A DNA stretch of 5,184 nucleotides, from positions 1 through 5,184 of the forward strand of contig JAISCU010000294.1 in assembly GCA_031265345.1 (NCBI GenBank), given 5' to 3'. The position numbers were made by a program, and so were the translations under genes. Below the pieces are notes generated by a model. It was not told the DNA's origin and did not search any database. It was given only the letters and a program-made list of their open reading frames with translations. This DNA comes from Bifidobacteriaceae bacterium. GTDB lineage: Bacteria > Actinomycetota > Actinomycetes > Actinomycetales > WQXJ01. Numbering within the stretch: the stretch's first letter is position 1; every line of letters begins with the position of its first letter. Below are positions 1 through 4,770 of the stretch, in pieces.

Positions 1-20
1 GGCAGATCGACAATCGTCAT
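1..20 (-). CDS. possible start of a downstream gene (only first 6 codons in window)
   Basis: An ATG at 20 is preceded by a strong GGAGGGG Shine-Dalgarno sequence with a 6-nt spacer and begins M-T-I-V-D-L. The same frame is open further upstream and could instead start at a GTG at 86, reading M-P-L-V-V-G-V-S-S-W-W-A-R-R-R-P-E-L-E-G up to the ATG region. It lies out of frame inside the 3' end of the recombinase gene, so either the two genes overlap or the recombinase frame is no longer meaningful here. The product cannot be named from so few residues. Confidence 0.3.
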
Positions 21-660
21 CGCAAACCCCTCCAACTCCGGGCGCCGACGCGCCCACCAACTCGATACTCCCACCACCAGCGGCACAAGTCCCGGCCGCG
101 GCGGCCTTGACCGCCCCCAGATGCTTCGTCACCGTGGACCGGCCAACACCCAACTGGGCCGCGATCTGGGTCAAGGTCAACTCCCCCGCAGCGTACAGCG
201 CCCCCGCGGCCGCCTCCTTCTCCGGCGTCGTCACCGACGGGCGCCCGCCCTTGCGGCCCCGCGCCCTCGCCGCCGCCAGACCGGCCCTCGTCCGCTCGCG
301 GACCAACTCCCGCTCCATCTGCGCCATCGCCGCGAACACACGGAACACCAGCCCGCCGCCCGGCGAGCCCGTGTCCAACCGCTCCGTCAACGACCGCAAC
401 TCCACCCCCCGATCCTCGAACATCTCAGCCAACTCGATCAGGTGGCGCACCGAGCGGCCCAACCGATCCAACCGCCACACCACCACCACATCGCCCCGGC
501 GCGCATAATCCAGCATCGCCGCCAACTCGGGCCGGTCCTCGCTAGCCCCGGACGCCCGATCCGTGAACACCCGCTCACACCCGGCCTCGGCGAGCGCGTC
601 GAACTGCAGCGCCGGCGTCTGATCGCCCGTCGAAACCCTCGCGTACCCGATGGCCGCCAA
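1..660 (-). CDS. small serine recombinase (resolvase/invertase family), 3' end beyond window
   Basis: Serine recombinases of the Tn3-resolvase/DNA-invertase class cut and rejoin DNA at short paired sites through a phosphoserine link. The translation starts M-A-A-I-G-Y-A-R-V-S-T-G-D-Q with the catalytic Ser at residue 10 and its partner Arg at 8. It continues with D-R-A-S-G (34-38), the V-V-V-W-R-L-D-R-L-G-R-S core (59-70; Arg66 and Arg69 are the expected active-site arginines), the E helix around 100-130, the R-K-G-G-R-P hinge (136-141) and a C-terminal helix-turn-helix, T-L-T-Q-I-A-A-Q-L-G-V-G-R-S-T-V-T-K-H-L (162-181). TTG at 660 is chosen because a TAG lies 33 nt upstream in frame, no ATG or GTG intervenes, and a purine-rich GAGAGGGGG precedes it. 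Family members usually end near 185-200 residues; this frame is still open at residue 220, with a low-complexity Ala/Gly tail, so the end may be altered. All residues needed for catalysis seem present. Whether it acts as resolvase, invertase or element integrase cannot be told. Confidence 0.93.
   Translation of the reverse strand, partial: MAAIGYARVSTGDQTPALQFDALAEAGCERVFTDRASGASEDRPELAAMLDYARRGDVVVVWRLDRLGRSVRHLIELAEMFEDRGVELRSLTERLDTGSPGGGLVFRVFAAMAQMERELVRERTRAGLAAARARGRKGGRPSVTTPEKEAAAGALYAAGELTLTQIAAQLGVGRSTVTKHLGAVKAAAAGTCAAGGGSIELVGASAPGVGGVCDDDCRSA
27..33 (-). promoter_or_regulatory. strong Shine-Dalgarno inside recombinase tail
   Basis: GGAGGGG, read on the minus strand, sits 6 nt before an ATG at 20. 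It is the best Shine-Dalgarno match noticed in the window and is the main reason to propose a translation start there rather than at the upstream GTG at 86. Confidence 0.4.
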
Positions 661-796: not shown

Positions 797-1186
797 TCAC
801 GATGGACGCGAGGCCCGGAAACGGCCGTTTACCGGCGTAACCGCAAGGCGGCTTAGCGGGGTGAAAGAGAAGCAGTGAGCTGCTCCCGCAAGGCGTGCGC
901 GTTCAATCAGCGCCTGACCGCCCGTTGGCACCACTTCCCTAACAGAGTCTTCGCCATTCACATCGGCGGGACATTCGACGAGCAGCTCGTCAAGCTCTTC
1001 GGGTGCAGTGTCTGCTGGGCGAACCGCCGTGGGTGTCGTCATGCGCCCATCTGCTACTGGCGGCGCAGGATCGGCAGGCTCCGGGAACCCGTTCTCGCGG
1101 GCGCATGTGCAAATTCCGGCCCGTTTAGCGGCGACATTCACAGTTAAGCCGCAGAACTCAGGCGCGACTCCGCGTATGGCGGGCAT
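797..1186 (-). CDS. hypothetical small protein, 129 aa, in the lower-GC segment
   Basis: Not recognised. ATG at 1186 begins 3 nt after the stop of the preceding minus-strand gene (TGA-GAG-ATG), as in translational coupling; no good Shine-Dalgarno sequence is visible. The N-terminal part contains V-A-A-K-R-A-G-I followed by A-R-E-N-G-F-P-E-P-A-D-P and V-A-D-G-R. This faintly resembles the end of the recognition helix and the wing in small MerR/AlpA-like DNA-binding proteins of actinobacteria (typically G-F-P-x-P then a Gly-Arg turn), but it is not enough to assign the family. A second Met at residue 49 opens an acidic stretch (E-E-L-D-E-L-L-V-E-C) and could be an alternative start. Third codon positions are only about 60% G/C by eye, much less biased than in the scpA/parA block, so this is either imported DNA or a chance ORF. 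Confidence 0.4.
   Translation of the reverse strand: MPAIRGVAPEFCGLTVNVAAKRAGICTCARENGFPEPADPAPPVADGRMTTPTAVRPADTAPEELDELLVECPADVNGEDSVREVVPTGGQALIERARLAGAAHCFSFTPLSRLAVTPVNGRFRASRPS
815..835. repeat. palindrome AAACGGCCGTTT extended to a bulged stem
   Basis: The 12-bp perfect palindrome AAACGGCCGTTT (819-830) is flanked by CCGG on both sides, with a single unpaired A at 831. It has no loop, which fits a protein-binding DNA palindrome better than a terminator hairpin. It lies inside the 3' end of the small hypothetical ORF. Confidence 0.35.
838..855. repeat. short stem-loop TAACCGC-AAG-GCGGCTTA
   Basis: The arms CCGC and GCGG pair around an AAG loop, and the stem extends through TAA/TTA past one bulged C. 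It is adjacent to the palindrome at 815-835. No T-tract follows on either strand, so it is not called a terminator. Confidence 0.25.
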
Positions 1187-1189
1187 CTC

Positions 1190-1822
1190 TCATGGAGCAC
1201 AAGGTACGTCACCTGACGAAACACCGCCTGCTGCGACGCGAAACCCGTAAGACGCGCGATTGGACCAGCTCATATCGTATTGGGGCATCCGCCTCAAATC
1301 ACTGGCTGAAAGCCCGTAACTCAGCTCCACAACGACCACGCTAACCTCCCGAGGAAGACCCTCGTCCAGCTGAATTTCCAGGCCATCGCCGCCTGCCACC
1401 ACGCCCAAATCGCGAGTTTCAGAGTCGAAAATGTACAGCCCCGCCTCATGGGTCGGTATACCATCTTGGTCGATCACGTCAAACGCCTTGACAATGACTG
1501 TCAAGGGCACAATTTGAGAACTGACATGGATCTTCAGGCCGCCGCTGAGTGACGCGTCGATCGCAGGGAGCTCGAACGAGCTGAGAGTCTCCTCCGGATA
1601 GAACTTGTCCGTTCCCTCCGGCGTGGCCCAATCCTTGGTCAACAACGCCACTCGTTGGCCATTGAAGCAGACCTCAGGCGGCGCCGGATCCGACTTGTCG
1701 ACCCTTACGAACTGACCCGGAGACCAGGCCGAGGCATCCGTGGCGCCGGGATTCACTAGGTCCTCCTTCAAACTCGGACTGGAAGCGCAAGATACCAGTG
1801 AGAGCCGCCACGTCAACCTCAC
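1190..1822 (-). CDS. uncharacterised protein with lipobox but truncated signal peptide (chimeric 5' end)
   Basis: Not recognised as a known family. The frame opens at a GTG (1822) that directly abuts the scpA stop (TGA-GTG) and reads M-R-L-T-W-R-L-S-L-V-S-C-A-S-S-P-S. L-V-S-C followed by A-S-S fits a lipobox with Cys at residue 12 (codon 1789-1787). However, only about five hydrophobic residues precede it, far fewer than the 10-15 of a working lipoprotein signal peptide. The rest is a soluble, mostly beta-looking sequence: Val-rich stretches such as S-Q-I-V-P-L-T-V-I-V-K-A-F-D-V and V-S-V-V-V-V-E-L-S-Y, with the motif G-L-Y-I-F-D-S-E-T. The body is about 53-57% GC in the lines counted, against about 77% in a scpA line. 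I infer that the true N-terminus of a surface lipoprotein was lost at a recombination joint and the remainder now follows scpA. If expressed, the product would probably stay in the cytoplasm. The coding frame itself is intact over 210 codons. Confidence 0.65.
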   Translation of the reverse strand: MRLTWRLSLVSCASSPSLKEDLVNPGATDASAWSPGQFVRVDKSDPAPPEVCFNGQRVALLTKDWATPEGTDKFYPEETLSSFELPAIDASLSGGLKIHVSSQIVPLTVIVKAFDVIDQDGIPTHEAGLYIFDSETRDLGVVAGGDGLEIQLDEGLPREVSVVVVELSYGLSASDLRRMPQYDMSWSNRASYGFRVAAGGVSSGDVPCAP

Positions 1823-1826
1823 TCAC
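1674..1826 (-). pseudogene. scpB: possible scpB start fused to unrelated sequence (remnant)
   Basis: A GTG at 1826-1824 overlaps the scpA stop as GTGA, the coupling commonly seen between scpA and scpB. It opens V-S-E-V-D-V-A-A-L, a plausible ScpB beginning of the kind seen in actinobacteria. After roughly nine codons (about 1800) the frame becomes T-G-I-L-R-F-Q-S-E-F-E, simply the out-of-frame shadow of the lipoprotein-like gene, and stops at 1674 after 50 codons. None of the ScpB winged-helix core is present. ScpB normally dimerises and binds the ScpA linker in the SMC condensin complex. The call rests on position, overlap and a very short N-terminal resemblance. Confidence 0.35.
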
Positions 1827-2632
1827 ACGAACTCCTCCGAAATCTCCAACTCGGTCGCCGCACCGGTCCAAGCTATCGTCAACTCCCCCAGCGCCTCCGG
1901 CTGCTCAAAGGTCACCTGACCGGCCCGGAACATCTCCAGCAACGCCAGGAACCGGGCGACCACCAGGCCGAGCCGCCCCACGGCATCGTCCACCAAAGAC
2001 CGGAAAGTGGCCCGCCCGGCCGCGGCCAGCCGCTGCGACACCAACCGGGCCTGCTCCGCGACCGAGACGGCCGGGGCGTGCAAGTGGTCCAGCGGCACCG
2101 CCGCCAACTGGGGCGGACGCGCCAGGACGGCGGCCGCGATGGCGGCCAACTGGGCCGGACCCAGCGACCACACCAGGTCCGGCAACAGCGACGCGAACTG
2201 GGGTTCCAGGGAAACGATCCGCGGGACGTGGCGAGCCTGCTCGGCCAGGCGCGCCGCCAGCGAGCGCGAGACCTCCTTGAACGCCCGGTACTCTAGCAAC
2301 CGCGCGAACAACAGGTCGCGCGCCTCCAACAGTTCCAAGTCCTCCGAGTCGGCCAGCCCGCCGGGCAGCAGCGAGGCCGCCTTCAGGTCCAACAACGTGG
2401 CGGCCACCACCAAGAAGTCCGATGCCGCCGACAACGGCCAGGCCTCCTCCCCCGTCTGAATTCGGGCCTCGATATAACCGATGAACTCGTCGGTCACTTG
2501 CGCCAGCGCCACCTCGGTGATGTCGAGTTGGTGTTTGGCGATCAGCGACACCAACAAATCGAACGGGCCGGTGAAATTGTCCAGGGCGACGGCGAAGGGC
2601 GCCGGAGCCGGAGCAGACGCGCTAGGCGGCAT
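1823..2632 (-). CDS. scpA: ScpA, kleisin subunit of the SMC-ScpAB condensin
   Basis: ScpA bridges the two heads of the SMC dimer and recruits ScpB, compacting and helping to resolve newly replicated chromosomes in the nucleoid. After a Pro/Ala-rich leader (2-12) the family hallmark F-T-G-P-F-D-L-L-V-S-L-I (20-31) is followed by K-H-Q-L-D-I-T-E-V-A-L-A-Q-V-T (33-47) and E-F-I-G-Y-I, the N-terminal helical domain that binds the SMC neck. F-L-V-V-A-A-T-L-L-D-L-K-A-A-S-L-L-P-G is the next conserved block, and a mostly helical linker follows. The C-terminal winged-helix region (F-R-S-L-V-D-D-A ... A-R-F-L-A-L-L-E-M-F-R-A-G-Q-V) ends E-E-F-V. The length of 269 residues is normal and both ends look complete. 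ATG at 2632 overlaps the parA end by 11 nt, so translation is probably coupled. The expected partner scpB does not follow intact. Confidence 0.96.
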   Translation of the reverse strand: MPPSASAPAPAPFAVALDNFTGPFDLLVSLIAKHQLDITEVALAQVTDEFIGYIEARIQTGEEAWPLSAASDFLVVAATLLDLKAASLLPGGLADSEDLELLEARDLLFARLLEYRAFKEVSRSLAARLAEQARHVPRIVSLEPQFASLLPDLVWSLGPAQLAAIAAAVLARPPQLAAVPLDHLHAPAVSVAEQARLVSQRLAAAGRATFRSLVDDAVGRLGLVVARFLALLEMFRAGQVTFEQPEALGELTIAWTGAATELEISEEFV

Positions 2633-3482
2633 CGCCCCGCGCGATCAGCTCGCGGGCCAGGCGGCGGTAGGCCAGCGCGCCGGGATGGTCCGGGGCGAAA
2701 CTCAGGATCGACTCGGCGGCGACCGAGGAGTCCGGGAACTTGACCGTGCGGGCGATCACCGTGTCGAAGACCTGCGAGCCGAAGGCCTCGTGGACGCGCT
2801 GCAGGACCTCGCGCGAATGCAGGGTGCGCGAATCGACCATGGTGGCCAGGATGCCGTCGATCTTGAGGCGCGGGTTGAGGCGGTCCGCCACCTTGGCGAT
2901 GGTCTCCACCAGCAGGGCGACCCCGCGCAGGGCGAAGTACTCGGTCTCGAGCGGGATGATCACGCCGTGGGACGCGGTCAGGGCATTGACCGTGAGCAGG
3001 CCGAGGGACGGCTGGCAGTCGATCAACACGACGTCATACGAATCGAGCGCGGGCCGCAGCATGCGCGCCAACGAGGTCTCGCGGGCCACCTCCCCGACCA
3101 GTTGGACCTCGGCCGCGGACAAGTCGATGTTGGCGGGCGCGACGTCGAGGTCCGGCATCGCCGTGGGGACCACGATGTCCGCCAAAGTTACCGAGGAACT
3201 CATGAGGGCGTCGTACACGGTCGGTTGGTCGTCCCTGGTGACCACGCCCAGCGCGACCGAGGCGGCGCCTTGCGGATCGAAGTCGACTATCAGCACCCGT
3301 CGGCCGTACTCCGCCAGGGCCGCGCCCAGGTTGATCGAGGTGGTGGTCTTGCCGACGCCGCCCTTCTGATTGCACAGCGCGATCACGCGGGCGGGGCCGT
3401 GCCCGTCCAGGGCCACCGGCTCGGGGAAGTCCTTGACGGCAGGCTTGGTGTCAGCAGGCTTCGGGTCAGGAGGCTTGGTCAC
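2622..3482 (-). CDS. parA: ParA/Soj-family ATPase of the scpAB locus
   Basis: Deviant-Walker ATPases of the ParA/MinD family dimerise on DNA with ATP and help position chromosomes or other cargo. After a Pro/Lys-rich leader, V-I-A-L-C-N-Q-K-G-G-V-G-K-T-T-T (33-48) gives the Walker A box with signature Lys40 and catalytic Lys45. V-L-I-V-D-F-D-P-Q-G (63-72) is the A' motif and D-V-V-L-I-D-C-Q-P-S-L-G (150-161) is Walker B with the P-S-L-G that follows it in ParA/Soj. The length (286) is typical. The start is GTG at 3482, 27 nt after the glycosyltransferase stop; a GTG at Val23 is an alternative. In other actinobacteria a paralogous ParA, distinct from the origin-linked parAB pair, sits just before scpA (Rv1708 in Mycobacterium tuberculosis). 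No parB lies beside it and no parS-like palindrome was noticed, which fits that paralog and argues against the origin-proximal parA. Confidence 0.94.
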   Translation of the reverse strand: MTKPPDPKPADTKPAVKDFPEPVALDGHGPARVIALCNQKGGVGKTTTSINLGAALAEYGRRVLIVDFDPQGAASVALGVVTRDDQPTVYDALMSSSVTLADIVVPTAMPDLDVAPANIDLSAAEVQLVGEVARETSLARMLRPALDSYDVVLIDCQPSLGLLTVNALTASHGVIIPLETEYFALRGVALLVETIAKVADRLNPRLKIDGILATMVDSRTLHSREVLQRVHEAFGSQVFDTVIARTVKFPDSSVAAESILSFAPDHPGALAYRRLARELIARGDAA

Positions 3483-3509: not shown

Positions 3510-4658
3510 TCAATCGGCGACGGCGCGCGGCTCACCCGCGGGCCGGTCCCGCCGACGACCGCGACGGCGGCCGCGGCCGCCGAACCAGAAGCCCAAACCC
3601 CACGCCAGATGGATCACGATGACCGCCCACCACATCCGCACTTTGCCGCCTGGCCGCAGATCATGCGAAGCCACCGCCACTCCCGCTGCCACCGCCAAGC
3701 CGTAGGCCAGCGGCGCGGTCAACGCCCACCAGGCGTGGCCCACACCGGCCAGGCTGGCGGCGATCCCGCCCACCACGGCCAGCGCCAGCAAGACCACCAG
3801 CAACGGCGCCATCAGATAACGCCAAGTCGAAGTGTCCGAGTGCGCGGTGATGATGCGCCGTCGCCAAGCCCCGATCCGGAACATGGTCCTTGCTAATTCG
3901 CCGGATGTGCTCGGAGATCGCCCGCGTAACGCCAGCGACGGGTCGAGCCACACCATCCCGCCGGCGCGGCGCACACGATGCTGCAGTTCCCAGTCCTGGG
4001 CCCCGGCGAAGGCCTCGTTCAATCCGCCGACCCGCTCGAAGGCGTCGCGGCGGATCGCCACCATCCGCACGGAGGCGACCGGCCCGCGGCCCACTCCGAC
4101 CCGCGAGGGCCTGGGCCCCACCCCGATCCGAGAGTTCAACGCCCTGGAGATGGCCTGTTCGGACGAGCCCAGGCCGAACGCCACCGACGATCCGCCGACC
4201 ACATCCGCGCCAGTCACTTCCATCGCCGAAGCGGCCTGTTTGAGCAAGTTGATCCAATCCCCCGCCCCGCGCCGGACCTGGGACAGCACCGGGTACCGCG
4301 CCGCGAAGGCGGCGGCGTTGATGAGGGCTGCCTTGGCGTCCGACTTGGCGTGGACCACCGCCACATGCGGGTCGGCCGCCAGTTCCTCCAGCGGGTCCGC
4401 CTGGCCCGGCTCCCCGTCCGCCTGGCGGCCCCCGGGCGCGCTCTCCGGCTCTGACGGCGCCGCCAGCAGAATCTCGAACTCGCCCGGATAGGGCTCGGCC
4501 AGCAGCTCCGCGACGGTGCGACGGGCGTAATCGACGTCGGTGGCGACCACGATGATGCTGACGGCCGGCCAGCCATCCGTCGGCAGTCCGCCGTCCGCGG
4601 GGACTCCGGCGCGGACGGCAGGGCGGCTCGCTCCGGAGTCTCGCCCGCCGCTCGTCAT
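3510..4658 (-). CDS. membrane-anchored family 2 glycosyltransferase, ExoA-like
   Basis: GT2 enzymes move a sugar from a nucleotide-sugar donor to a polysaccharide or lipid acceptor at the inner face of the membrane. From ATG at 4658 (382 aa) a variable leader precedes P-A-V-S-I-I-V-V-A-T-D (31-41), the first beta strand of the GT-A fold. Next come S-D-A-K-A-A-L-I-N-A-A (106-116), the G-V-G-R-G-P-V-A-S-V region and A-G-A-Q-D-W-E-L-Q-H-R-V-R-R-A-G (219-234), matching the x-D-W-E-L motif of ExoA/succinoglycan-type transferases. Three membrane segments (about 283-303, 308-330, 342-359) lead to an Arg-rich cytoplasmic tail. The stretch where the donor/metal-binding DxD would be expected reads V-L-S-Q-V-R-R-G-A-G-D-W (124-135) and lacks a clear DxD. 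An ATG at 4733 would add 25 residues but puts the CRP-like site and -10 element inside the gene, so 4658 is preferred. Substrate unknown; possibly cell-envelope polysaccharide. Confidence 0.85.
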   Translation of the reverse strand: MTSGGRDSGASRPAVRAGVPADGGLPTDGWPAVSIIVVATDVDYARRTVAELLAEPYPGEFEILLAAPSEPESAPGGRQADGEPGQADPLEELAADPHVAVVHAKSDAKAALINAAAFAARYPVLSQVRRGAGDWINLLKQAASAMEVTGADVVGGSSVAFGLGSSEQAISRALNSRIGVGPRPSRVGVGRGPVASVRMVAIRRDAFERVGGLNEAFAGAQDWELQHRVRRAGGMVWLDPSLALRGRSPSTSGELARTMFRIGAWRRRIITAHSDTSTWRYLMAPLLVVLLALAVVGGIAASLAGVGHAWWALTAPLAYGLAVAAGVAVASHDLRPGGKVRMWWAVIVIHLAWGLGFWFGGRGRRRGRRRDRPAGEPRAVAD

Positions 4659-4665
4659 ACCTTCA

Positions 4666-4671
4666 ATCCTA
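4666..4671 (-). promoter_or_regulatory. -10 element, probable leaderless promoter of the glycosyltransferase gene
   Basis: TAGGAT fits the actinobacterial -10 consensus TANNNT and is followed by exactly 7 nt (TGAAGGT) and the ATG at 4658. Transcription would then start at or next to the start codon. The alternative is that GAAGG or AGGA in the same bases acts as a Shine-Dalgarno sequence for a longer transcript. No clear -35 is seen. Confidence 0.5.
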
Positions 4672-4694
4672 AGTCGTCGCCGCGACCCGACCGC

Positions 4695-4710
4695 CGTGAG
4701 CCTGATCACA
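4695..4710. promoter_or_regulatory. CRP/GlxR-like palindromic operator
   Basis: CGTGA-GCCTGA-TCACA matches the CRP-family consensus TGTGA-N6-TCACA at nine of ten defined bases. The flanks add a further C on the left and CGG on the right, so that CCGTG and CACGG also pair loosely. The centre (4702.5) lies 44.5 bp before the ATG at 4658, near the class II activator position if that gene is leaderless, and 81 bp before the divergent ATG. Mycobacterial CRP and corynebacterial GlxR use this type of site. Confidence 0.45.
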
Positions 4711-4770
4711 CGGCCGCCTCCCAATCCCGACATGCGCCTCTAGTACGAGCCAGGTCGGGCGCACGCCGCA

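Follow-up and report, generated by a model that had tools for sequence, protein, structure and literature searches.

A probable illegitimate joint between the start of scpB and a low-GC, lipoprotein-like gene in a Bifidobacteriaceae contig

An intact scpA gene is followed, on a short Bifidobacteriaceae contig, by only the first nine codons of scpB, after which the sequence passes into a low-GC gene that another Bifidobacteriaceae genome carries elsewhere. We consider it probable that an illegitimate joint at 1799-1804 fused these nine codons to a recently transferred lipoprotein-like gene, itself cut upstream of its lipobox. The window, by which we mean the whole stretch of DNA analyzed here, is a contig of 5184 bases; all annotated genes lie on its minus strand, and the contig end at base 1 falls inside a resolvase gene. 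The window contains, from its upstream end:

3510..4733, minus strand: family 2 glycosyltransferase-like gene, a normal neighbour (PF13641/PF13632 matches below the curated cut-off)
2622..3482, minus strand: parA-like ATPase gene, intact (PF13614, E 2e-59; 89% identity to L001)
1823..2632, minus strand: scpA, intact (PF02616, E 5e-40; 81% identity to L001, 83% to P0125)
1800..1826, minus strand: scpB remnant, GTG start plus eight codons (VSEVDVAAL), overlapping the scpA stop as GTGA and co-linear with the scpB of G013 (VTDSKLAALEAVLMVV)
1799..1804, strand not applicable: junction between scpB and foreign DNA (homology to G013 ends at 1803; base 1800 and the CTC codon)
1190..1822, minus strand: foreign gene, conserved part 1190-1756 (88% identity to P0002, 57-58% to P0003 and P0004)
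1148..1803, minus strand: 656-bp segment common to G013 (C60 end plus C144 start), 58.7% GC, about 93% identity, flanks unrelated on either side
968..1135, minus strand: 56 codons from the interior of a lipoprotein-like family gene bearing a CARENGFPE motif (tblastn, four of five members align)
1..660, minus strand: small serine resolvase/invertase gene running off the contig end (PF00239, E 3e-46; PF02796; phrog_125 DNA invertase, E 2e-68)

The order of glycosyltransferase-like gene, parA and scpA is also present in three relatives (L002, L003 and L004). By ScpA, the nearest relatives are metagenome-assembled genomes (MAGs) recorded as Bifidobacteriaceae (L001-L004, 68-81%; P0125, 83%); P0006 is probably the ScpB partner of P0125, the closest ScpA, both being encoded on contigs of 94,702 bases.

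As the original prediction stated, scpA is intact: residues 30-256 of its product match the full-length kleisin domain (profile positions 1-232 of 232), and its stop codon TGA (1825-1823) overlaps a GTG (1826-1824) as GTGA. The frame opened by this GTG reads V-S-E-V-D-V-A-A-L down to 1800, and then T-G. In the MAG G013, the scpB that follows scpA begins V-T-D-S-K-L-A-A-L-E-A-V-L-M-V-V; the nine codons of the window are co-linear with it, with A-A-L common to both, and the final three to four bases of the remnant may derive from the foreign side. The core of ScpB (PF04079) found no match anywhere in the window in a profile search of six-frame segments (ScpB profile of 120 proteins, segments of at least 40 aa, E ≤ 1e-5), which agrees with the earlier claim that scpB is cut within its first codons. 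The cut precedes the conserved core (EAVLMVV) and lies inside a leader whose length varies among 21 close proteins; for three of these, the annotated start falls in the core itself. Given this position in a variable leader, the remaining scpB could have been kept at another site and be translated from a different start.

Base composition changes at the same place, from 68.6% GC in scpA to 58.6% in the gene at 1190-1756, with GC3 of 88.5 versus 65.6. The predicted drop in GC is thus real and its figure of 55% for the foreign gene roughly right, but the 77% given for scpA described one line of that gene and not the whole. The change is more than one of composition, since G013 holds an independent copy of the segment elsewhere in its genome. 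This copy is in two pieces, at the end of contig C60 (window 1251-1803, 92.8% identity) and the start of contig C144 (1148-1369, 93.2% identity), with an exact overlap of 119 bases; beyond 1148-1803, the window has no similarity to these two G013 stretches. As homology to G013 ends at 1803, the foreign edge can be placed at 1799-1804, inside the interval of 1795-1805 first proposed; base 1800 is unlike G013, whereas CTC suits the Leu codon of scpB. Both G013 contigs end within one gene (L084 end, L085 start), and their overlap suggests that more than one version of the foreign gene was present in the G013 sample.

The surroundings of the G013 copy are those of a different locus. C60 carries histidinol dehydrogenase and two more his-type genes beside the segment (hisD-hisC-hisB, Pfam), and dnaE, which encodes DNA polymerase III alpha, lies on C144 (Pfam). 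Relatives have a small gene adjoining dnaE; of 17 loci compared, this gene ends 21-287 bases from hisD in six and 981 bases in one, and in ten it was not found in the upstream sequence available, which in four of them amounts to only 0-616 bases. The corresponding distance in G013 would be about 3.0 kb, from coordinates, if the two contigs join, as the 119-base overlap and the gene order indicate they may. The scpA and scpB genes of G013 are adjacent on a further contig (C100); with the segment sitting elsewhere in a genome whose scpAB is intact, it appears to be accessory DNA that occupies different places. The segment is low in GC in both genomes (58.7% in the window, 58.2% in G013), and no further copy was found in 18 family genomes, among the matches listed. 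Measured against its G013 copy, the foreign gene of the window shows dN 0.056 and dS 0.135; the same pair of genomes gives dN 0.179 and dS 1.15 for scpA and dN 0.057 and dS 0.82 for parA. A dS six to eight times below that of scpA and parA indicates that the foreign gene moved between the lineages recently, after their split.

The strongest competing explanation is a chimeric assembly: DNA from two genomes would meet artificially near 1800, and the organism itself would have a complete scpB. The contig is short (5184 bases) and metagenome-like, and the G013 assembly branches at the foreign gene, inside which two contigs terminate with their exact overlap. On the other hand, no exact string of more than 10 bases that spans the joint occurs in the six loci examined (L001-L004 and L111, which contain scpA, and L084, with the G013 segment), and 10 bases are too few for the usual k-mer join; a repeat search of 1000-1950 found no repeat above chance length over the joint. 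The 10-base figure speaks against a k-mer join; chimeric molecules may still account for the contig, and we regard a chimera overall as rather unlikely.

The foreign gene has a possible GTG start at 1756, preceded by AAGGAGG at 1768-1762, and its open frame continues upstream through a lipobox-like L-V-S-C to GTG 1822 within the scpB remnant. Besides the window's own protein, there are only the three close proteins listed above; when 396 genomes of the order were searched, two distant relatives were added, in G006 and G020, with hhalign probabilities of 87 and 58. Judged by eye, the N-termini of these two resemble lipoprotein signal peptides, and a Cys and then a linker separate them from the shared region. 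The window frame reads L-V-S-C-A-S-S-P with only 11 residues before the Cys, and that of G013 reads V-V-A-R-G-L-L-I-A-F-stop-L-G-S-C-A-S-S-P. The stop in the G013 copy is an in-frame TGA (L084:9931-9933) directly upstream of the lipobox-like stretch; this stop, the short N-terminus in the window and the moderate hhalign probabilities weigh against the lipobox reading. From these two sequences and the distant relatives, on which that reading draws, we infer that the product of the foreign gene may be a lipoprotein of the cell surface and that the joint may have removed its signal peptide. As the edge at 1803 falls just upstream of L-V-S-C, the joint seems to have truncated the foreign gene as well as scpB; this, together with the lipoprotein-like appearance of the distant relatives, goes beyond the original prediction. 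Structure prediction for the foreign gene gave only a beta-sandwich at low confidence; an LPMO or other Ig-like beta-sandwich fold is at most a candidate.

At the other edge, a fragment of the CARENG family (1135-968), with its N- and C-terminal parts missing, begins just past 1148, and the right flank of the G013 copy differs from that of the window. Four of the five family members tried aligned with the fragment by tblastn (E 4e-13 to 2e-5); complete members in relatives have 346-372 residues, and the two that were scanned (L090, L092) had no Pfam match. Two copies of this lipoprotein-like family lie side by side in L091, and also in L092. We read the protein whose start adjoins the CARENG gene in L090 and L092 as efflux-adaptor-like; the L092 candidate matched only PG_binding_1, below its cut-off. 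With an internal fragment of another family abutting the right edge, the stretch looks like joined gene fragments and not like one element with ends, and we read the junction as illegitimate joining within accessory DNA rather than as the edge of a cassette with defined ends.

A serine recombinase had been noted further along in the same orientation, and the gene at 660-1 is indeed a resolvase, matching both the N-terminal catalytic domain (PF00239) and HTH_7. It is of a common kind, with at least 5000 matching plasmid records, and its best match among the matches listed (18 genomes) is 68% identical and lies elsewhere in G013. A mobile cassette with defined ends at 1803 and 1148, moved by this resolvase 0.5 kb away and inserted into scpB, would fit the same 656 bases in both copies, their unrelated flanks and the low dS of a recent transfer. 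We nevertheless hold it to be very improbable: the gene inside the cassette seems to be interrupted, at its signal peptide, by the left end, no resolvase ORF was seen next to the G013 copy, and among the matches listed the 18 genomes contain no further copy. The repeat search of 1000-1950 returned no inverted pairs; it gave seven direct families, all short and of two copies, and no family pairs both edges. A larger insertion would have its other end beyond the contig, which bounds such a search for terminal repeats and target duplications. The earlier proposal of a mobile element or recombinase as the cause is thus not supported, and the comparison with relatives that it called for, aimed at an empty site and a target duplication, found no empty site bearing the window's own flanks.

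Separation of scpB from scpA had been called unusual, and the relatives bear this out. ScpA and ScpB were each found in the same 14 of 18 family genomes, and neither in the remaining four; in all 14 they are neighbours on one contig, the two matches being 20-143 bases apart. Over 80 scpA loci, an ScpB match lies downstream in 79 (at less than 600 bases in 69 and at 0.6-1.5 kb in 10), and the remaining locus is cut by its contig end. Four of the 10 more distant loci were translated, and each has one long ScpB frame. ScpB has a long, acidic-rich N-terminal extension in L077 (8774-10238), and also in L065, L070 and L079, where an open frame of about 0.6-1.5 kb lies between scpA and the ScpB core. 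The gene after scpB in L001, L002 and L004 encodes a pseudouridine synthase with an S4 domain, as rluB would. L003 has, in place of the rluB-like gene, a PD-(D/E)XK nuclease family transposase-like gene (PF12784; 3763-4782, minus strand), which is a second accessory insertion within the same operon region. That the window instead shows the natural gene order of its lineage, with scpB elsewhere and the VSEVDVAAL frame due to chance, is scarcely credible: PMC7083940 gives non-consecutive locus numbers for scpA (cg1611) and scpB (cg1614) of Corynebacterium glutamicum, but the 14 family genomes with either gene all keep the pair together, and the nine codons retain both the GTGA start coupling and their co-linearity with G013 scpB, including A-A-L.

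Under the favoured explanation of an illegitimate joint, 1799-1804 would mark where an insertion, a deletion or an inversion ended, linking the first nine scpB codons to a gene of low GC that was transferred recently and was itself severed a little before its lipobox. The segment would be part of a tract in which gene fragments stand beside mobile genes, as the CARENG fragment and the resolvase suggest, and the foreign gene would now be read from the parA-scpA operon, either from GTG 1756 or from GTG 1822 in the scpB remnant. A working ScpB may still be made if the remainder of its gene has been kept at another site and has acquired a new start, and a merely displaced scpB would amount to an ordinary rearrangement; if the remainder is not kept, the cell would hold ScpA without ScpB. 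An scpB truly gone, with scpA kept, would let one see in a natural bacterium whether Smc-ScpA works without ScpB, as has been proposed for archaea (PMC7055376). According to PMC11898615 and PMC7083940, deletion of smc gives no growth phenotype in C. glutamicum, so that a loss in an actinobacterium is conceivable. It is nonetheless doubtful that this lineage lacks the ScpB core and runs Smc-ScpA without the kite subunit, the foreign gene having captured the scpB start (GTG 1822, or the coupling to scpA) for expression from the parA-scpA operon.

Compared with the scpA-scpB pair of the SMC-ScpAB condensin in Actinomycetota, the window has the same parA-scpA order, the GTGA coupling and the first nine codons, but differs in having a foreign gene in place of the scpB core. 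The resolvase gene resembles small serine resolvases/invertases (PF00239) in its catalytic and HTH domain matches, and differs from them in standing without a partner transposase in the window and in being cut by the contig end. The closest counterpart of the foreign gene is LBC97_07170 (P0002), a hypothetical protein of the Bifidobacteriaceae MAG G013: the window's protein is 88% identical to it and the DNA 93% identical over 656 bp, whereas the G013 copy differs in its site (the dnaE/hisD locus), its split over two contigs and its flanks.
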